Assembly (NCBI RefSeq): GCF_001661965.1
Contig: NZ_LYWZ01000004.1
Location: 1-60,839 of the forward strand
Length of the DNA: 60,839 bases
Reading direction: 5' to 3'
Source of the DNA: Croceicoccus mobilis
Lineage (GTDB): Bacteria > Pseudomonadota > Alphaproteobacteria > Sphingomonadales > Sphingomonadaceae
Shown here: positions 11,491 to 20,884 of the stretch, in pieces
Layout of the letters: each line of letters starts with the position of its first letter
Position numbering within the stretch: position 1 is the stretch's first letter
Notes under the pieces: model-generated
What the model saw: the letters and a program-made list of their open reading frames with translations, nothing else
The model's database searches: none
What the model was told of the DNA's origin: nothing
Made by a program: the position numbers and the translations under genes

Positions 11491-11793
11491 AGGTGCCGCT
11501 AATGCGCGCATCATCCGCACTGATTGCCTTGGCCCGGCACGTGTGCCCGGCTGACCCAAAATCGACCCGTCATCATTTTGCCACGCGCTGCCTGAAAAGC
11601 CGTGCAATCCCATGCACATAATGACCATGACGACTGCCCAAAGAGCCGCACCGATACCCTTTGGACGATAGGCGGGCGAATTCGGGCATCCCCCCAATTA
11701 GCTCCTGCAGCAAATTCCGATTTGCGCGCGTCTGTTGTATGCCTCTGTCACGGGATCGGTCAGCGGGGCCATATTTTGCGATTAGGAAGAAGA

Positions 11794-12708
11794 TTGCGAC
11801 GAAACACTTTTCTTGTCACCGGAACGCCCCGCTCCGGGACCACGGTCGTTGGCGACATACTGGGCCTCGCCCCCAGCACGGTGACCCTGTATGAACCGAT
11901 GAACGGCGACAGCGGTGACCGGTCGGTCGACCGTTATTTCGAGATCCCCGGCGCGCATGGCTATAGCAAGAAAAGCTTTGCCGATCTCGTCAGCCGTGTC
12001 AGCCGCCTCGACCTGAAGCTGCGCCCCGGCAATTTCGCGCATGAAACCGGGCTGAGGAAACTGGCCAAGAAAATCATCGGTGGCCGTTCACGCCATTCCC
12101 TGCGCATGGCGAAACTGCAGCCCACGGCACAGAACGTGATCTGGAAAGATCCCATCGCTCCGTTTGCCGCGCGTGCCTTTATCGAATGCACCGGGCAGCC
12201 GGTCGTCGCGACATTCCGCCCGCCGCACGCCGTGGTGGCCAGCCTCAAACGCCTGAACTGGACCTATAACATCCAGGAAATCGACGACGGGCTTAAGGGC
12301 AAGTACCTGTCCCGCAATCCGATGCGCAGCCCCGACGACGTGGTCGAAGGCGGCGCCGCCCTTTGGGCCATGGTCTATGGCGAGTTGATGGAACTGCACG
12401 AAGCGTATCCGGACAAGGTGCATTTCGTGTCGACCGAAGATCTAATCGACGATGCCCTCCCCGTGTTCGAACGGCTGTTCGACGATCTGAGCCTTGAGAT
12501 GACGGACAAGATCCGTGAGAAGATCGTCGCCCGCTTCACGCCCAAGGACGCGCCCGAAACGCCCAATGGCCATCCGCATTCGCGCAATCGCGACATCCGG
12601 CAGGCCAATGAATACTGGCGCAAGATCCTGACCGACAATGAGATCGAGGTCGTGAACGACCGCGTCGGCACCATCCGCGAATTTTACGACACGCGCGCTT
12701 TTGCCTGA
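11794..12708 (+). CDS. Sulfotransferase family protein
   Basis: The protein carries the PAPS 5'-phosphosulfate loop at its very N-terminus (VTGTPRSGTTVVGDIL, from about residue 8) and a second phosphate-binding segment (PVVATFRPPHAVVASLKRL) typical of sulfotransferase_3-like enzymes. These transfer sulfate to carbohydrate, lipid or peptide acceptors; the acceptor here is unknown. I chose the TTG at 11794, giving 304 residues, because AGGAAGAAGA sits directly before it and the P-loop then begins at the usual distance. Longer upstream frames contain only low-complexity coding. It converges with the TonB receptor at 12721. Sulfoglycolipid or polysaccharide modification is a reasonable guess. Confidence 0.8.
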   Translation: MRRNTFLVTGTPRSGTTVVGDILGLAPSTVTLYEPMNGDSGDRSVDRYFEIPGAHGYSKKSFADLVSRVSRLDLKLRPGNFAHETGLRKLAKKIIGGRSRHSLRMAKLQPTAQNVIWKDPIAPFAARAFIECTGQPVVATFRPPHAVVASLKRLNWTYNIQEIDDGLKGKYLSRNPMRSPDDVVEGGAALWAMVYGELMELHEAYPDKVHFVSTEDLIDDALPVFERLFDDLSLEMTDKIREKIVARFTPKDAPETPNGHPHSRNRDIRQANEYWRKILTDNEIEVVNDRVGTIREFYDTRAFA

Positions 12709-12720
12709 TCGCGCGGTCTT

Positions 12721-15051
12721 TTAAAGTTCGAGACGCAGACCGATGGTCAGCCTGCGCGGCGAACCCGGGCCATAGGCGCGCGGGTTCGCCGCACCGGGCG
12801 CTTCTTCCAGTTCGACCTCGTCCACCTCGCTAAAGGTGCCGAAAGTCGCATAATCGCGGTCGAACACGTTTCGCAGCTCGGTAAAGAGCGACAGCCCGCG
12901 CATCATCTCCACCTTGCCGCGAAGGTTCAGGAGAGCATAGCCGGGTGTGAGCGCGTTGTCGTTTCCTTCATCGCCCACCAGCACGAGGCCGGACCGCGCC
13001 ACGATATCGCCGCCAAGTGCAAAGCGGCGCGTGCCGATCATGCCTTCGTAATCGACGGTAAGCGTGGCGCTGTGGCGCGGAATGCCGGGCAGCCGGTCGC
13101 CCGCCATAACTGCGATCGTGCCGTCATCCGCCGCCGCCGGATTTTGCGGGCTCGACAGGGTGAGCGGCGTGCGGAAAGTCGCATCGGTAAAGGCATAGCC
13201 TGCCCTCACCTGCCAGCCGCCATGCGTTGCCGACAGATTCAATTCCAGCCCCTGCCTGCGCGTCGAGCCGACATTGAGGAAATAGGCCCGCCCCCTGACG
13301 CGCGATGCGATGAACTGGATGTCATCGATATTCGTCGTTCTGAAACCCGAAACGTCCCAGTCGATGTCCCAACCTGCGGCCGTGCCCTCACCCGATGCAC
13401 CCAGCTCCCAGCTTTTCGCCACGACCTGGCGCAGCGGCGGATCGGCAATGAAGAAATTGGCGAGGCTGCACGGCGCATTCTCATCCGCGCATGACAGCTC
13501 GGCAGGTGTGGGCGCGCGATTGGTCTCGGCATAGCCGGCGCGCAGGGACAGCTTATCACCTACCTCATATTCCAGTTCCAAACCGGGGTTCAGGCGGCGG
13601 AAGCTATGATCGCCATTGAGCGCGGTGCCGATCCGGTCGATCAGTTCGATCCCGGCCCAGTTCCAGCGCAGCCCGATCTCGGCCGTCAGCCGCGACGTGA
13701 TCGGCAGGCTGTCGGCAAGGAACACGCCTATATATTCGGTCTTCGCCGTCAATGAGACCGGGGCGATGGCCCCATCTGCCTGCACGATGATCGGCCCAAG
13801 CCCATCGACGCTGCGATCATCGGTCAGCGCCCCCAGTTCCGCGCTGGTGGCAAAGCGGCTGGTCGATCCGTCATAGCTGACCCCCAGGGCAAGCCGATTG
13901 GTGCCGCCCCAAATTTCCCGCTCATCCACCAGCTGCAGCATGCCGCCCATCGAGCGCGTATGCAGCCGCCCGCGATTGAGGACGCCATAATCCTCACCGC
14001 CCAGCATTTCGGCAATGGCATTGCCGTCCGCATCGGTCAGCAGGCTCTGCTCCTCTTCGCCGCCGTCATCCTCGTCCACGGTCTCAAGGCACAGGAAAGC
14101 CTCGTCATCTTCGCAGGTCTCGATATCGGCGGCATCGCCGTTTACGGTACGCGCCTTGAGCCGCTGACGGTAGAACGTGCCTTCCAGCCGCGTGCTATCC
14201 CCCAGGCCGACCCATGGGTGCAGGCTGATCCGGCCATAGCGGCTGGTGGAATTATCGGGCCAGGTGAACACGGATCTGCGCCGCGCCGCGAGCAGTTCCA
14301 CCGGGGCGACGCCATTGCCGGTCAGATCCGTGTCAGCCCCGACGAATTTCGCGTGCACCCCTGCCGTTTCACCATCGAAGCCAAGGTCAGCATAGGCATT
14401 GAACAATTCCGACGGGCTGTGATCGCGCCAGCCATCCTCCTTACGCCATTGCCCGGCGGCAAATGCGCTGAAGTCACCCTTCGCCATGCCGGCGGCTATG
14501 CTCGCATCGCGCTCGCCATAGCTTCCGCCTGCCAGCGATGCTTCCAGTCCGGGGTCGCCTGCCCCGGTCTTCGTTTCCATGACCATCGTGCCGCCCAGCG
14601 CGTTGAGGCCATAGGCAGGGCTCGCATCGAGCAGTGACACCGAACGGATCGCAGCGTCGGGTATGAGGTCGAAACCGACCGTATCGCCGAATGGCTGATT
14701 GAAGCGCGCACCATCCAGATACACCGCCAGCCCCTGCGCCTGCCCCTGCAATGGCGAAGCGGTAAAGCCGCGATAGACGAGATTGGGCTGCCATGGATTG
14801 CCCTGCGCATCCTGAAGCGAAACGCCCGCGATATTGCGGGTCAGCGCGGCCAGCACATCGGGCGAGCCGGTGCGGCCAATGTCGGCGCTGTCCAGGCTTT
14901 CGGCCTCTTCGATCTCGATCCCTCCGCCGGGTGCGGTGACGATGATCGTGCGCGGTCCGTCAGACAGGTCGTCTTCGGCAAAGGCCGCGCCGGGCTGGCA
15001 TGCCAGAGCCGTCAATCCCGCCGAAGCGAGCCATGCAAATCGTGCCGACAA
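12721..15051 (-). CDS. TonB-dependent outer-membrane receptor
   Basis: This 776-residue receptor imports a ligand across the outer membrane using TonB energy. It starts with a signal peptide ending at AFA (about residue 25), then a TonB box-like stretch (RTIIVTAPG) and a plug domain (about 55-175) with NPWQPNLVYRGFTASPLQGQAQGLAVYLDG. A 22-strand barrel follows and ends in LTIGLRLEL with the terminal aromatic-like pattern weakly kept. Its plug resembles receptors of the FecA/siderophore-like or haem-like type, but the ligand is unknown. The TTG start at 15051 follows GGGAGAG. It is the last gene of a same-strand row with an aminotransferase, exporter, acetyltransferase and another receptor. 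Confidence 0.9.
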   Translation of the reverse strand: MSARFAWLASAGLTALACQPGAAFAEDDLSDGPRTIIVTAPGGGIEIEEAESLDSADIGRTGSPDVLAALTRNIAGVSLQDAQGNPWQPNLVYRGFTASPLQGQAQGLAVYLDGARFNQPFGDTVGFDLIPDAAIRSVSLLDASPAYGLNALGGTMVMETKTGAGDPGLEASLAGGSYGERDASIAAGMAKGDFSAFAAGQWRKEDGWRDHSPSELFNAYADLGFDGETAGVHAKFVGADTDLTGNGVAPVELLAARRRSVFTWPDNSTSRYGRISLHPWVGLGDSTRLEGTFYRQRLKARTVNGDAADIETCEDDEAFLCLETVDEDDGGEEEQSLLTDADGNAIAEMLGGEDYGVLNRGRLHTRSMGGMLQLVDEREIWGGTNRLALGVSYDGSTSRFATSAELGALTDDRSVDGLGPIIVQADGAIAPVSLTAKTEYIGVFLADSLPITSRLTAEIGLRWNWAGIELIDRIGTALNGDHSFRRLNPGLELEYEVGDKLSLRAGYAETNRAPTPAELSCADENAPCSLANFFIADPPLRQVVAKSWELGASGEGTAAGWDIDWDVSGFRTTNIDDIQFIASRVRGRAYFLNVGSTRRQGLELNLSATHGGWQVRAGYAFTDATFRTPLTLSSPQNPAAADDGTIAVMAGDRLPGIPRHSATLTVDYEGMIGTRRFALGGDIVARSGLVLVGDEGNDNALTPGYALLNLRGKVEMMRGLSLFTELRNVFDRDYATFGTFSEVDEVELEEAPGAANPRAYGPGSPRRLTIGLRLEL

Positions 15052-15228
15052 CGGCGCGCTCTCCCAAAGCGTATTCTCTTTCGCTTAGGAGTAACGAAAT
15101 GCTCCGGCCATGCATACTTGTGCCAAGGTATAAGGCGAGACCAAAAGAAACGGGGAGGAGCCAGTCCCCCGGCCCTCCCCGCACGCTGGTGTCCCTTCCC
15201 CAAGGGGATGCTGGCTCGATCGAACGGA

Positions 15229-16350
15229 TCAGACCAGCTGTGGCAGCAGTTCGGCGTAGCGTTTCACATCTTCGATATAGCCGCACGATACGCGCGACCA
15301 GTTCGTCCACTTGCCATAGGCACCGCGGATCGAGACTCCATTTTCGGCCATCGCCTTTTGCAGCGCATCCGCATCGGGAACCTTTACATAGACGAAGTTC
15401 GTTTCCGATGGCAGCGCGGTCAGGCCCGCCCCGGTGACCGCGTCCATGATGATCTTGCGCGCGGCAAGGACCTGGTACTTGGAGTAGGTCTTGAAAGTCT
15501 CGTCCTCGAAAGAGGCGATGGCGGCGGAAAGACCGGCGGTATTGCCGCCAAAGCTCATGAGATAGCTGCGAAGCTCCATCGCCGTATCCGGGTGCGACAG
15601 TGCATAGCCGACGCGCAGGCCCGCCATGCCGAAGATCTTCGAAAAGGTGCGGCACACGATCAGGTTCGGGTGATCGTTTACCATGTCGGAGACCGAGAAG
15701 AACGCCGGATCGCTCGTCAGCTCGTTATAGGCCTCGTCCACGAGGATCGGGATATCAGCGGGCACGTTCTGGATAAAGCTGCGCAGAGCGGCACCGCCCG
15801 TGGCCATGCCGGTCGGATTGTTCGGGTTGCAGATCTGGATCATGCCGACATCGGGGCCGATCGCCTTCGCCATGGCGTCAAGGTCGACGCTCATGTCCTC
15901 GGCCAGCGGCACGCGCTTCAGCGTCGCCCCCTTGCGCTCGGCATATTTGACCGTGGTATCCCAGAACAGTTCGGGGCACAGGATCGCCTTGCCATCGGGC
16001 AATGCCAGCGCAGCAGCGCAAAGCACTTCGGTGGAGCCGGAACTGATAGTGATATTGTCGGGCGACAGGCTGTAATGCGAAGCGATGATGCCGGTCAGCT
16101 TTTCGACCCCGCCATTGGCGTAATAGCAGCCGTTCTTCGCCTCGTCATAGATTGCCTGAATTGCGGACGGCGCGGGGCCGAATGGATTTTCGTTACGCGA
16201 CAATTGCGCGACGCCGGGCGGCGGGCCGAATACCGATGGGTCCTTGGCGGGCGCGGTGGCGGTCTGCGCCATGGCGCTGGAGCCGACGAGCGCGGCTCCT
16301 CCGATCGTGGTGCCGGTCAGCATCCGGCGGCGGGAAAGTTCCATTTTCAT
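15229..16350 (-). CDS. Tat-exported PLP-dependent aminotransferase (HisC-like fold)
   Basis: This 373-residue fold-type I aminotransferase resembles histidinol-phosphate aminotransferase but begins with a twin-arginine signal (LSRRRMLTGTTIGG, hydrophobic stretch to AMA about residue 28), so it should work in the periplasm after folding with its cofactor. The catalytic set is complete: NPNNPTG (175-181), Asp205 (VDEAYNE), Lys238 (TFSKIFGMAGLR) forming the Schiff base, Arg246, and a C-terminal Arg (WSRVSCGY) for the substrate carboxylate. Exported aminotransferases of this type are known mainly from Caulobacter and Sphingomonas relatives; their substrates are not settled. It sits between a TauE/SafE exporter and a TonB receptor, so it may act on an imported amino compound. 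Confidence 0.86.
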   Translation of the reverse strand: MKMELSRRRMLTGTTIGGAALVGSSAMAQTATAPAKDPSVFGPPPGVAQLSRNENPFGPAPSAIQAIYDEAKNGCYYANGGVEKLTGIIASHYSLSPDNITISSGSTEVLCAAALALPDGKAILCPELFWDTTVKYAERKGATLKRVPLAEDMSVDLDAMAKAIGPDVGMIQICNPNNPTGMATGGAALRSFIQNVPADIPILVDEAYNELTSDPAFFSVSDMVNDHPNLIVCRTFSKIFGMAGLRVGYALSHPDTAMELRSYLMSFGGNTAGLSAAIASFEDETFKTYSKYQVLAARKIIMDAVTGAGLTALPSETNFVYVKVPDADALQKAMAENGVSIRGAYGKWTNWSRVSCGYIEDVKRYAELLPQLV

Positions 16351-16414
16351 CCTCCCTTGTCGGGTTTCTGGGAACGGGCGCCGTAAGGGCGGACACCCGA
16401 TCGAAAGGCCGCCT

Positions 16415-17245
16415 TCAGGCGGTAAGGCCGTTGCGGATCATGATCGCGCCAATGAACAGGAGATAGACCCCGAAAATGCGCTTCATCCACTCTGGATTAA
16501 GGTGATGCGCCGCCGCCGCGCCCCACGGGGCGGAAAACGACGACATGGCGACGATCGAAAGCGCCGCGATCACATTGACATAGCCAAGCGAGCCGACAGG
16601 CAGCCCGTGCACGCCAAGGCCGATGATCGCATAGCCGATGGCCGACGGGACCGCGATGATGACGCCAATGCCCGACGCCGTGCCGATCGCCCGGTGGATG
16701 GATCGGCCATAGAGGGTCATCACGATGATCGCGACCGTGCCCCCGCCAATGCCGAGCAGCGAGGACGAAGCACCGAGGCCCGTGGCGATCGCCATGCGCC
16801 CGCCGCCTGCCGGAATATCTTCACCCAATTTCATCGACTTGAGGATCGGGTAGAGGAAGTGGATCGCCATCAATATGACGCCCACCCCGAATATGATCGC
16901 CAGCACCGAGCTGGAGACGAGCGAGGCGAAGAGCACACCTGCAATGGAGCCGACGACGATATAGGGCGCCCATTGCTTCAGCAGTACGAAATCCACTGCC
17001 CCGCGCCGCGCATGCGCCTGCATCGACCGGAGCGAGGTGACGACAATGGTCGCAAGCGACGTGCCGATGGCGACATGCGCCAGTTCGGCTTCGGAACCGC
17101 CCAGAAGCGGGAGCATGACGAAAAGCGCAGGGACGACGACGAAGCCGCCGCCAATACCGAACAGGCCGGCGGCAAAGCCCGCCAGCACGCCCGCGCCAAG
17201 CATGAGGCCGATGATCGGCGCCCATTCGATGATCTGGTCTATCAT
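16415..17245 (-). CDS. TauE/SafE family anion exporter
   Basis: This 276-residue inner-membrane protein has about eight hydrophobic helices and the family repeats (AGLFGIGGGFVVVPALF near residue 25, and SSLLGIGGGTVAIIVMTLYG near residue 160). Each repeat carries the GIGGG glycine motif. Family members export sulfite or sulfoacetate, or move other organic acids. It is co-oriented with the downstream Tat aminotransferase (64-base gap) and the upstream GNAT gene (54-base gap). Sulfite export would fit if the aminotransferase acts on a sulfinate or sulfonate amino acid, but this is only a hypothesis. Confidence 0.86.
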   Translation of the reverse strand: MIDQIIEWAPIIGLMLGAGVLAGFAAGLFGIGGGFVVVPALFVMLPLLGGSEAELAHVAIGTSLATIVVTSLRSMQAHARRGAVDFVLLKQWAPYIVVGSIAGVLFASLVSSSVLAIIFGVGVILMAIHFLYPILKSMKLGEDIPAGGGRMAIATGLGASSSLLGIGGGTVAIIVMTLYGRSIHRAIGTASGIGVIIAVPSAIGYAIIGLGVHGLPVGSLGYVNVIAALSIVAMSSFSAPWGAAAAHHLNPEWMKRIFGVYLLFIGAIMIRNGLTA

Positions 17246-17299
17246 TTTCGGCCCACCTTGAGGGAAAGGGGGCCGGCATCGGGGGAATGCCGTGTCACT

Positions 17300-17854
17300 T
17301 CATAGGTCCTTCATCATGTGCACGATGGGCACGCCTGATGCCGTTTCATGCGCGATTTCCCTGAAGCCGCAGGCGCGATAAAGCGGCATTCCGCCCATCG
17401 TCGCGTGCAGCTGGATTGTGTTGAAACCCTCCGCCCTTGCCGCATCTTCGCCGGCCTTCAGGATCATGCGCCCGATGCCGAGCCGCGTGAAATCGGGGTG
17501 AGTGTACATGGCGCGAATACGCGCCGGTTCGGTCGCGGGATTCAGCAGGCGGGGATTGCGCCCTTCCGACTGGTCACCGCCGAAATTCGTGGCCCGCCTG
17601 CTCCACCCGCCACAGCCGGCAAGCACGCCATCCACCTCGACTGCGAAATAGGTTCCGTCGGCAAGGAGCTGGGTGTCGAGCGCCATGAAGAGATGGCTGG
17701 CGGCAACCTGCTCGGGCGGCAGCACCCGGGCAAGCAGCACGTCGGTGGAGAGGCGAATGAGCGCGCGAACGGCTTCGGCATCGCCGGGAACGGCAAGCCT
17801 CAGCACCGGTGTCGCGCGCTCATCCTCCCCAACCGGGGTGCCGGAACGGGACAT
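17300..17854 (-). CDS. GNAT family N-acetyltransferase
   Basis: This 184-residue acetyltransferase transfers acetyl from acetyl-CoA to an amine on an unknown small molecule or protein. The acetyl-CoA motif is MYTHPDFTRLGIGRMILKAGEDAARAEGF (R/Q-x-x-G-x-G/A pattern RLGIGR) in the C-terminal third, followed by a MGGMPLYRACGFREI motif-B segment. I chose the ATG at 17854, which has GAGGA upstream (GAGGATTGTTCC). A longer start would overlap the end of the preceding receptor gene. It lies 32 bases from that TonB receptor and belongs to its putative operon. Confidence 0.84.
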   Translation of the reverse strand: MSRSGTPVGEDERATPVLRLAVPGDAEAVRALIRLSTDVLLARVLPPEQVAASHLFMALDTQLLADGTYFAVEVDGVLAGCGGWSRRATNFGGDQSEGRNPRLLNPATEPARIRAMYTHPDFTRLGIGRMILKAGEDAARAEGFNTIQLHATMGGMPLYRACGFREIAHETASGVPIVHMMKDL

Positions 17855-17886
17855 GGAACAATCCTCATCCGCTCCGGCAGTCGTCA

Positions 17887-20451
17887 TCAGAAGCTCGCCC
17901 GGATCTTGGCGTAGTAGTAGCCGCCCATCCAGTCGACGGTCGAACCGGAGTTGTAGACGCGGCCGCAGCAATATTCGAAATCGGCCTTGTCCGGGTAGTT
18001 GTCGAACAGGTTACGCGCACCGACCGACAGGGTGAACATGTCGCCGAAGTCGTAGCTGCCTTCCAGATCGAACATCCATTCCGAGCCATAGGTCTGATAG
18101 ACCAGCGGCGCGTTGCTGCCGTCCGAGTTCGTCGACTTGCCGAAATAGTTGGCGCGCGCGACGATTCCCAGCGGACCTGCGTCATGAGCGATGGTGAACA
18201 CGCCCTTCCACTTCGGATCGAAGTTTTCGAAGTCGTACTGGTCCTCGTCGTTGAACAGGTCGTCGACCGGCCCATCGAAAGAGGTTTCGTTGTAGTTCAT
18301 CGCCGCCGTGAAGGTGGTGGTGCCAGCGCTCCATGTCGTCTTGTACGAACCGACGATGTCGACACCCTTGGTGATCGTGTCGAACGCATTGGTGAAGTAG
18401 AAGACGCCGCCAATCGATTCTGCGCCCACGACGCCCGCATCGATCAGATTGCCGACATAGCCAAGGCAGTCCGTCTGTGTACCGGCAGTCGCGGTATCGC
18501 AGTCCGAAACGACATTGATGGTCGAAATGGCGTTCAGGCGATCCTTGAGCGCGATCCGGTAGAAGTCGACCGACATGGTGAAGTTGCCGAAGTCGCCGGT
18601 GACGCCCCATGCCCAGTTGGTCGATTTCTCAGGCTTCAACGGCGTTGCGCCCAAGGCCTGCGCAACCGCGCTGGATGCCGGGAACAGGCCGGTCGCAACC
18701 GGAAGACCGTTGGGCAGACGGGTCGACACATTGGTCGTGCCCTGCTGGCCCGGCGTCGGTGCGCGGAAGCCCGTGCCATGCGAAGCGCGCAGCGCGACTT
18801 CGGGCGTCAGTTCGAACCGGCCCGCGATCTTGTAGATCAGCTGCGAATCGAAGTCCGAATAATTCTCGTACCGGAGCGCGCCCTGCAGGAAGAAGGTGCT
18901 GGTCACGTCGGCCGAAAGATCGCCATAGAACGCATAGCTGTGACGGTTGTAGGTGCCCGAAAATTCGGGCGAATAACCGGGGAAGCCGTTCGAGCCGACG
19001 CCGACGACGGTATAGACCGGGTCATCCCCGTCCGCACATTCGGCCGCAGTCAGCGGGCTGCCGGTGGTGGGGACGCCTGCATCGCAGAAACCGTACGGAT
19101 CGGCACCCGAATAGGGCCCTGCGAAATAGGAGTCGGGATCACCCTCGACCAGTTCGTAACCTTCTTCGAAATAGGTCCCGCCGAACGCGAAATCGAGATC
19201 GCCGGCAAGGCCGACGTCAAAGCTCTTCACGAAGTCAGCCTGGAACTGCAGTTCGTCGTTGATCAGGTCGCCGGGTTTGAAGCTGGTCGGCGAATCCGGG
19301 CCCATCGACGGGTTGATCGTGTTGACCAGCGTATAGGCGATCTTGGAACGGCCATAGCGGGCCGAGAAATCATAGGTGAACGTATCGGTCAGATCGCCGC
19401 GCAGGCCGCCGACCATCGACAAGTCCGTCACGTCGCCGGTGAACTGCGGCGTGAAACCGCCGGGGAAAAATTCCAGCGGGCTCCAGATCGAGCCATCGGC
19501 AAGGCGGATATCCTCGATCGTGCCGTTGTTCGGATAGCGATAGAAGAAATTGCCGGTGGAGGTCGACCAGCTGTAGTTGCCAAAGGCGTAAAGCTCGGCC
19601 TTGTCCGAAAGTTCATAGCCGGCATTCACGAAGGTGCGGACCGCTTCCATCGAGGGGCGACCCCATGGCTGGACCGTCTTGATGCCATCGACGGCGGCCG
19701 CATATTCAGCATTGGCCGGATCGGCGGCATAATCATCGACGCAGAACCAGCTTTCGCAATATTGCTCGGCCCGGTTGGTGTTTTCGGCGTTGTAATATTC
19801 CGCCGAGACATTGACGAAACCGCGATCACCAAGACCAAGGCCGATATTGCCGGCGAAGCGATATTCGAAACCGTCGCCTTCATAGAACTGGCCGGCTTCC
19901 GCTTCGAGGCTGATGCCGGTGGGGCTGTCCTTCAGCAGGAAGTTGATGACGCCGGCGATGGCGTCCGAACCGTATTGCGCGGCAGCGCCGTCGCGCAGCA
20001 CCTGCACCGACTTCAGCGCGATCGATGGGATCGTCGCGATATCGGGGCCCTGCGTGCCCGATCCGCCAATGGTGACCAGCGCGGCGCGATGGCGACGCTT
20101 GGAGTTTACCAGCACGAGGGTCTTGTCGGTCGGCATGCCGCGCAGCGTTGCCGGGCGAATGAAGCTGGAGCCGTCGGAAATCGGATTACGCGACAGCGTA
20201 TAGGACGGCACGAGCGTCTTCAGGACGTCATTCGTGTCCGTATAGGAAACGGCGTTGAGATCGTCAGTGCTGAAAACGTCGATCGGAACCGGCGAATCGG
20301 CCACCGTGCGGTCATTGCCGCGAAGGCCGGTCACGACGATAGTGCCATCTTCTTCCGACGGATCTTCGTCGGCGGTCTGCGCCATGGCGGCCACAGGAAA
20401 CAGCAGGCTGCCCGCAAGAGCAAGCGATGACACGAATGAGCGTTTATGCAT
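17887..20451 (-). CDS. TonB-dependent outer-membrane receptor (paralogue of the one at 58162)
   Basis: This 854-residue receptor has a signal peptide (MHKRSFVSSLALAGSLLFPVAAMAQ), a TonB-box-like GTIVVTGLRG, a plug domain rich in conserved motifs (ALKSVQVLRDGAAAQYGSDA, followed by IAGVINF), and a long barrel ending YYYAKIRASF. Paired cysteines in extracellular loops (CESWFC; CDAGVPTTGSPLTAAEC) suggest disulphides. It is clearly related to the receptor at 58162-60819, with the same plug wording and closing motif. The ATG at 20451 is preceded by AGGAGATCTCC. The gene is first in the five-gene row down to 12721. The ligand is unknown; this class in sphingomonads is often linked to peptides, sugars or siderophores. 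Confidence 0.92.
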   Translation of the reverse strand: MHKRSFVSSLALAGSLLFPVAAMAQTADEDPSEEDGTIVVTGLRGNDRTVADSPVPIDVFSTDDLNAVSYTDTNDVLKTLVPSYTLSRNPISDGSSFIRPATLRGMPTDKTLVLVNSKRRHRAALVTIGGSGTQGPDIATIPSIALKSVQVLRDGAAAQYGSDAIAGVINFLLKDSPTGISLEAEAGQFYEGDGFEYRFAGNIGLGLGDRGFVNVSAEYYNAENTNRAEQYCESWFCVDDYAADPANAEYAAAVDGIKTVQPWGRPSMEAVRTFVNAGYELSDKAELYAFGNYSWSTSTGNFFYRYPNNGTIEDIRLADGSIWSPLEFFPGGFTPQFTGDVTDLSMVGGLRGDLTDTFTYDFSARYGRSKIAYTLVNTINPSMGPDSPTSFKPGDLINDELQFQADFVKSFDVGLAGDLDFAFGGTYFEEGYELVEGDPDSYFAGPYSGADPYGFCDAGVPTTGSPLTAAECADGDDPVYTVVGVGSNGFPGYSPEFSGTYNRHSYAFYGDLSADVTSTFFLQGALRYENYSDFDSQLIYKIAGRFELTPEVALRASHGTGFRAPTPGQQGTTNVSTRLPNGLPVATGLFPASSAVAQALGATPLKPEKSTNWAWGVTGDFGNFTMSVDFYRIALKDRLNAISTINVVSDCDTATAGTQTDCLGYVGNLIDAGVVGAESIGGVFYFTNAFDTITKGVDIVGSYKTTWSAGTTTFTAAMNYNETSFDGPVDDLFNDEDQYDFENFDPKWKGVFTIAHDAGPLGIVARANYFGKSTNSDGSNAPLVYQTYGSEWMFDLEGSYDFGDMFTLSVGARNLFDNYPDKADFEYCCGRVYNSGSTVDWMGGYYYAKIRASF

Positions 20452-20884
20452 GGAGATCTCCTGATCCATTGGACGATCTCCTCCCCCAAATTCACTTTCT
20501 CCCAAGGCTGCGCCCTTCGGCCTTCTGGCCGGTCTTTTATTCGCAGCTATTATCTTACCTGAAAGTCCCTCGATATTTGTCCCGATGCGCGGCGTCCCAT
20601 GCTCGCGCAACAAAGTTTCCCTGAATCACTCTGTTACGAATTGCTGACAAAACGACGGGTAAGTTTCAATAGAAATCTCGCACTGCAGCAAATTATGTTC
20701 GCAGATGCACACACGGGAAAGAACCCTGATCACGGCACATCATTTCAAAACAGTGACTTGCGCGCAGAACGTGAACCGGCCCTCATATTATGCGAACGGC
20801 ATGTCCTGCTTTTTCCGACACTATCCCCGGTTCGCATATGCCGCCCATCTTCCAATCCGCGGCTGACACGGCATAATTGCAGCA
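20452..20884. other. Divergent promoter region
   Basis: These 433 bases separate the TonB receptor and the cation antiporter, which are read outward. They are AT-richer than the flanks and must hold both promoters. I see no gene, repeat or clear operator. Confidence 0.5.

Follow-up and report, generated by a model that had tools for sequence, protein, structure and literature searches.

What would a transaminase do outside the cytoplasm, and why would it be encoded beside an inner-membrane permease and an outer-membrane receptor? Transaminases are usually regarded as cytoplasmic, as their acceptor and their cofactor are located there. The question is raised by a row of genes at 12721–20451 in a stretch of 60,839 nucleotides from Croceicoccus mobilis (NZ_LYWZ01000004.1, assembly GCF_001661965.1), which was analyzed as a whole and is here called the window. 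The row consists of 5 intact open reading frames, all on the reverse strand (12721–15051, 15229–16350, 16415–17245, 17300–17854, and 17887–20451) and separated by gaps of 32, 54, 64, and 177 bases, exactly as an initial annotation of this DNA had described. Pfam bears out the gene families named there: TonB barrel and plug domains in both receptors, and Aminotran_1_2, TauE, and Acetyltransf_1 in the others. We find that these 5 genes are not all one set. The core is TauE together with an aminotransferase carrying a twin-arginine translocation (Tat) signal, with the TonB-dependent receptor TBDR2 upstream in some loci. The TauE–aminotransferase pair is real and conserved; its parts are ordinary, and their combination is unusual. 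The features of the row are as follows (L numbers denote compared loci):

12721..15051, reverse strand: TBDR1, the second TonB-dependent receptor, distantly PqqU/YncD-like (matches to PDB 6v81 and 9c4o, score against the PqqU model, locus comparison).
15143..15181, reverse strand: probable intrinsic terminator, with a stem at 15181–15151 and then TTTCTTTT at 15150–15143 (pattern scan and RNA folding).
15229..16350, reverse strand: pyridoxal phosphate (PLP) aminotransferase with a Tat signal, HisC-like, core member (Pfam, NCBIfam, alignment, structure model, and fold match).
16261..16350, reverse strand: predicted twin-arginine signal peptide of the aminotransferase (sequence; twin arginines in 35 distinct TauE-linked homologues; low model confidence for residues 1–31).
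16415..17245, reverse strand: TauE/SafE (TSUP) inner-membrane permease, core member (PF01925; directly upstream of a type-A aminotransferase at 24 other loci).
17300..17854, reverse strand: GNAT acetyltransferase, 184 amino acids, optional member (Pfam; in the TBDR2–TauE interval of the window, L009, and L079 only).
17887..20451, reverse strand: TBDR2, TonB-dependent receptor of 854 amino acids with a signal peptide (Pfam barrel and plug; relatives beside TauE and/or the aminotransferase).

We searched 397 family genomes, that of the window among them, and found the aminotransferase in 30 (E ≤ 1e-60) and TauE in 51 (E ≤ 1e-30). For the 16 best-scoring of the 30 aminotransferase matches, which come from 15 genera, TauE lies directly upstream in every case (16/16). 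The counts based on these 30 matches and on the 43 TauE places described below were made by eye from coordinates. Among the loci compared, L012 is a repeat of L083 and L014 of L086, and each was counted once. Besides the window's own, 24 pairs combine TauE with an aminotransferase of the window's type (type A), and all 24 are on the same strand, with 33–152 bases between the matched parts. The neighborhood comparison proposed in the initial annotation thus finds the core pair together, and we looked there for genes that are never neighbors, and for close homologues missing the Tat signal, and found neither. The one type-A relative that lacks the twin arginines (L015:2932–4005, Novosphingobium sp. 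ERN07) has no TauE either, and the next gene encodes an MFS transporter. The aminotransferase is present in 0 of 10 other sampled genomes of the window's genus, and its distribution is therefore patchy.

The association also extends beyond the family. A search of the phylum (398 genomes) with the PRK09105 model (NF006580) located 48 places, spread over 40 genomes; 40 places were fetched, and 4 were already in the set. Outside the family, TauE adjoins an aminotransferase in 5 of the 40 fetched regions, i.e. in L154, L158, L164, and L165, which represent one family of another class, and in L150, from another family of the same class, where TauE is cut by the contig end. The window's order of TBDR2, TauE, and aminotransferase is kept in L154 and L164 (TBDR2 identity of 55% and 53%), while in L153 and L155 a TBDR2 relative (62–63%) adjoins the aminotransferase without TauE. 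A plasmid search returned 46 records, all below 60% identity among the 30 matches listed, and no paper on a TauE–transaminase pair was found in titles and abstract starts of the open-licence PubMed Central (PMC) literature.

The aminotransferase begins with MKMELSRRRMLTGTTIGGAALVGSSAMAQT, a twin-arginine signal ending in A-x-A, in which SRRRML is followed by a hydrophobic stretch and then by AMA ahead of Q. The Tat signal proposed in the initial annotation is therefore well founded, and twin arginines occur in the N-terminal region of 37 of 37 TauE-linked rows (35 distinct loci); a stricter pattern that adds the hydrophobic run skips L081 and L120, in which the motif is visible by eye. This signal predicts export of the folded aminotransferase by the Tat system. 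The AlphaFold2 model has a mean predicted local distance difference test score (pLDDT) of 90.8, with residues 1–31 below 50 and most others above 90, and its best match among solved structures is 3ly1, a putative histidinol-phosphate aminotransferase (HisC). The class I/II PLP aminotransferase family PF00155 is recognized (158.1 bits against 19.7), and N178, D205, Y208, K238, and R353 are invariant across 33 aligned relatives. By analogy with this fold type, we take K238 to be the PLP lysine, R353 the substrate arginine of the carboxylate type, and N178, D205, and Y208 to be PLP contacts.

Finer classification places the enzyme below the curated cut-offs of 3 related models: 201.7 bits against 500 for PtaA (NF051461), 250.5 against 444 for PRK09105, and 206 against 276.55 for HisC (TIGR01141). 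The aminotransferases of L153 and L154, from other families, likewise fall below all 3. A role as the genome's HisC was considered and is unlikely; the own-genome protein L002 scores 270 over a 331-residue part, just under the HisC cut-off. By signal and fold, the window enzyme is a predicted periplasmic transaminase of the PtaA kind, yet it is not classed as PtaA. PtaA of fluorescent pseudomonads is likewise a HisC-like PLP transaminase with a Tat signal and a presumed periplasmic action, but the window enzyme differs by its score and by its TauE linkage, joined at some loci by a TonB receptor.

TauE is predicted to be an anion transporter from its membership in PF01925 (141.4 bits, gathering cut-off 32.6). 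A structure search returned no solved fold at E ≤ 0.001, and a sequence search of the PDB matched nothing up to E 10, so structure offers no ligand hint. Relatives of this permease occupy 56 places in the family genomes, 43 of them at ≥52% identity and 13 weaker at 34–47%, of which one was fetched (G200:C123, L133). In 2 of the 43, a stop falls inside the TauE match (G175:C29:372498–373298 in L083 and G396:C3:145563–146357 in L114).

The partners of TauE at these 43 places are a window-type aminotransferase in 16, a PRK09105-type aminotransferase in 11, an NHL protein without aminotransferase in 8, an alanine dehydrogenase in 4, and other settings in 4. These last are TBDR2–GNAT (L079), 2 receptors with an M19 dipeptidase (L096), nothing recognized (L116), and a contig end (L119). 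TonB receptor, NHL, and M19 neighbors were detected with models derived from the compared loci themselves, and several loci stop at contig ends. The PRK09105-type enzymes are only 27–35% identical to the window type, and twin arginines are present in 11 of 11; all 3 partner enzymes that were scored (L099, L110, and L106) pass the PRK09105 cut-off. They share the Tat signal and fold class with the window enzyme and adjoin the same TauE subfamily, but form a separate deep clade. In a quick aminotransferase tree, which carries long-branch warnings, the 2 types are split by a long branch with full support in the Shimodaira–Hasegawa-like approximate likelihood ratio test (SH-aLRT). A TauE tree of 51 rows requires 12 changes of partner label, compared with a mean of 24.3 after shuffling, which indicates that labels are clustered, yet that partners have been replaced several times. 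For example, the window's supported group of 6 includes 2 PRK09105-linked TauE, and the alanine-dehydrogenase cases fall in one supported group with PRK09105-linked TauE.

Both types of aminotransferase and alanine dehydrogenase interconvert amino acids and 2-oxo acids. One TauE subfamily thus serves as neighbor to 3 different enzymes of this kind, of which 2 carry export signals, and a 2-oxo acid, or else an amino acid, would be the simplest cargo to suit them all. We give about even weight to the reading that a periplasmic transamination module is made up of TBDR2, TauE, and the aminotransferase, with TauE as its 2-oxo-acid carrier. Specifically, TBDR2 would take up a peptide or amino compound through the outer membrane, the aminotransferase would fold around PLP in the cytoplasm and leave through the Tat system, and the exported enzyme would strip the amino group from its substrate in the periplasm. 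At the inner membrane, TauE would either import the deaminated product, or export or exchange an acceptor 2-oxo acid such as pyruvate, and a carrier of this kind would recharge the PLP cofactor in the periplasm. GNAT, the signal-peptide M19 dipeptidase, and the signal-peptide NHL-repeat protein would be optional accessories at some loci. In outline, the uptake, periplasmic amino-group chemistry, and anion carrier of the initial annotation survive as the best reading. The genes, the signal, and the conserved linkage of TauE to enzymes that convert amino acids and 2-oxo acids into each other are observed, whereas the substrate, the direction of transport, and the coupling are inferred.

Precedents exist for parts of this scheme. 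KbuT of Neisseria meningitidis, named as a TSUP/TauE-family protein, is required for the oxidation, uptake, and consumption of alpha-ketobutyrate, about 80% of which is left in the medium of the mutant, and its proposed cargo is a 2-oxo acid (PMC12671195). It differs from the window's permease in lying in a methylcitrate-cycle cluster, and section 8 of that article reports no aminotransferase partner (PMC12671195). PtaA is described in a pyoverdine review as a Tat-exported periplasmic transaminase, with PLP regeneration in that compartment only assumed (PMC6206403). The same neighbors would also fit a TauE that moves the amino acid itself, whether made or consumed by the periplasmic enzyme, since the enzymes of both aminotransferase types and alanine dehydrogenase all use amino acids, as known for their families. 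A TSUP connection with glycine and acetic acid is also mentioned for Shewanella (PMC12671195), whereas the cargo tests in the papers considered, a small sample, concern anions, alpha-ketobutyrate, and sulfate (PMC11535334, PMC12671195), and we consider amino-acid cargo unlikely.

The initial annotation had proposed that a sulfinate such as cysteine sulfinate is transaminated and that the sulfite released explains TauE. In its wider form, with cysteate as a further substrate and sulfite or a sulfonate as the exported product, this explanation can draw on TSUP proteins that have sulfite, sulfoacetate, or sulfate as cargo (PMC11535334), and on the PF01925 membership that the window's TauE shares with sulfite and sulfoacetate exporters. 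Sulfite formed in the periplasm, however, is already outside the inner membrane and needs no exporter there. The partners of window-type TauE are amino-acid enzymes, alanine dehydrogenase being found among the neighbors of the subfamily, and Pfam typing of 40 selected neighbor proteins shows no sulfur-metabolism gene beside TauE, sulfite oxidase and sulfur assimilation included. Moreover, the enzyme is HisC-like, and the window's TauE has no cysteine (0 residues), with a single column of the aligned set holding cysteine in more than 30% of rows. The sulfinate explanation is thus highly improbable for this locus and does not account for TauE.

Several observations weigh against a transamination module with TauE as 2-oxo-acid carrier. 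The remaining 14 of the 30 aminotransferase matches have no adjoining TauE and lie in other settings, and PRK09105-type enzymes are often found without it, e.g. the own-genome L149. Where PRK09105-type genes do adjoin TauE, 3 of 11 are divergent from it and 8 of 11 are on the same strand. The alanine dehydrogenase partners all come from one genus; the L103 protein was typed, and those of L098, L100, and L104 were assigned to it by sequence cluster. At 8 of the 43 places, TauE adjoins the NHL protein, which has a signal-like N-terminus and is not known to act on amino acids. No farther than 5 kb away, a receptor is present in just 9 of 24 type-A, 7 of 11 PRK09105-type, and 2 of 17 other TauE rows, with some loci ending at contig ends, and the receptor link is therefore only partial. 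KbuT is likened to this TauE by its family assignment (PMC12671195), and other TSUP members handle sulfite, sulfoacetate, or sulfate instead (PMC11535334).

TBDR2 carries a signal peptide and the TonB-box-like stretch DGTIVVTG. Its relatives adjoin TauE and/or the aminotransferase in L009 (81% identity), L079 (69%), L094 (64%), L153 and L155 (62–63%), L154 (55%), and L164 (53%). Within the family, a copy of at least 64% identity occurs in 3 of 397 genomes, in all 3 beside TauE, and further TBDR2-like matches at 41–45% identity occur in 13 places. The PDB matches of TBDR2 are siderophore or colicin receptors, covering the plug only, and these would fit a rival reading, in which the aminotransferase tailors, in the periplasm, a peptide or siderophore (own or foreign) imported by TBDR2, with TauE serving another role in the same regulon. 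PtaA, a Tat substrate that modifies pyoverdine in the periplasm, is also present in species without pyoverdine (PMC6206403). Yet the window enzyme scores far below the PtaA cut-off, TauE is the more constant neighbor and the receptor the less constant one among the loci compared, and the sole hint of peptide synthesis among the 40 typed neighbor proteins is a weak AMP-binding match in L081. Such tailoring therefore appears rather unlikely.

For the transamination module, peptides are a plausible source of substrate, because an M19 dipeptidase is present in 4 related loci and an amidase lies beside the TauE-less relative L087. The dipeptidase, which carries a signal peptide, follows a receptor in L010, L011, L079, and L096, and its closest PDB sequence is that of the M19 membrane dipeptidase 2rag; the window row has no such gene. 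The NHL protein is found downstream of the aminotransferase in 5 loci (L013, L083, L084, L085, and L123). GNAT comes after TBDR2 and before TauE at 3 loci, namely the window, a Croceicoccus metagenome-assembled genome (L009), and L079; an alternative ATG start would overlap the TBDR2 stop by one base and yield 195 amino acids. In L079, the TBDR2–GNAT–TauE unit is divergent from a second unit of TauE, aminotransferase, receptor, and M19 dipeptidase.

The suggestion that the whole row is one operon or regulon holds for the association of TauE and aminotransferase, but not for its outer members. The 5-gene row is seen only in the window, and the 4-gene order TBDR2–GNAT–TauE–aminotransferase only in the window and L009, with GNAT at just 2 other loci. 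TBDR1 is the best match at 0 of 63 loci compared, where weaker TBDR1 matches behind another receptor would be hidden, and the receptor that takes its position in L010 is only 22% identical over a partial alignment. The only PDB relatives of TBDR1 are 6v81 and 9c4o (YncD and the pyrroloquinoline quinone (PQQ) transporter), and it reaches 96.9 bits against a cut-off of 1200 for the PqqU model (NF041535). One 5-gene transcript is unlikely because the G+C-rich stem and T-tract listed above, which resemble a terminator, lie 3′ of the aminotransferase, ahead of TBDR1. We therefore reject a single 5-gene operon, and TBDR1 is probably a separate unit outside the conserved module. As the fold energy of the hairpin is unexceptional (z = −1.31, with 18 of 200 shuffles folding equally well), this rejection rests mainly on the pattern and on conservation. 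A promoter scan gave 0 sites (shuffle mean 2.4). Among 11 receptor upstream regions, the best 16-mer totals 47 mismatches against 52 for the lowest of 20 shuffles, in which every second position was sampled; the difference is too weak to use. Upstream of TBDR2, the window carries TAATTTGCTGCAGTGC at 20680–20695, which recurs in part ahead of the receptor in L079, with 3 mismatches, and in L010, with 4, on weak statistics.

Other neighbors and relatives were observed in passing. A sulfotransferase-family protein (PF13469, 27.8 bits against 27) lies at 11602–12708 of the window, convergent with TBDR1, and L143 has a sulfotransferase-domain protein close to a PRK09105 enzyme that has no TauE. The window's own genome encodes a second receptor 45% identical to TBDR2 at a contig end (G000:C4:30–2567), another TauE from the window's subfamily, next to an NHL-repeat protein (L118, TauE at G000:C21:60684–61475; this pair is kept in L115 and L117 of the same genus), and the L149 enzyme (G000:C20:197750–198862), a PRK09105 aminotransferase with a twin-arginine signal and no adjoining TauE of the window's subfamily. 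Near TauE in L098, L099, L100, and L110 are genes from 2 sequence clusters common to these loci, whose L098 members were typed as response regulator and histidine kinase. Genes for chemotaxis-receptor signaling domains adjoin the aminotransferase in 2 of the 4 pair loci of the other class (L164:5482–6723 and L165:8427–9614), and a LysR regulator is divergent from the receptor in L164. In one genus (L091, L092, L093, L130, L131, and L132), a related Tat-signal aminotransferase belongs to a conserved cluster with a flavin adenine dinucleotide (FAD) reductase of the pyridine-nucleotide type and a GMC oxidoreductase, the next gene being epoxide-hydrolase-like as typed in L093. A TauE-less row of TonB receptor, alpha/beta hydrolase, and Tat-signal aminotransferase is present in L088, L089, L090, L127, and L128, and in Cyclobacteriaceae (L016, L017, L019, L027, and L029) 2 aminotransferases of the superfamily with twin-arginine signals lie on opposite strands, about 1.5–3 kb apart.

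A more specific proposal, which we advance tentatively and at somewhat less than an even chance, is that the TSUP permease is a dedicated 2-oxo-acid shuttle that swaps acceptor and product across the inner membrane, thereby recharging the cofactor of a transaminase exported by Tat. Uptake would run through a TonB receptor, a periplasmic dipeptidase would take part in some genomes, and 2 deep transaminase branches would have been recruited to one permease subfamily. A permease kept beside exported transaminases while the type of transaminase swaps would be a concrete candidate for the missing cofactor-recycling part. It also points to a possible cargo for this TauE subfamily, which carries the name of sulfite exporter in Pfam, and suggests amino-acid chemistry outside the cytoplasm, for which a carrier may supply or collect the keto acids.
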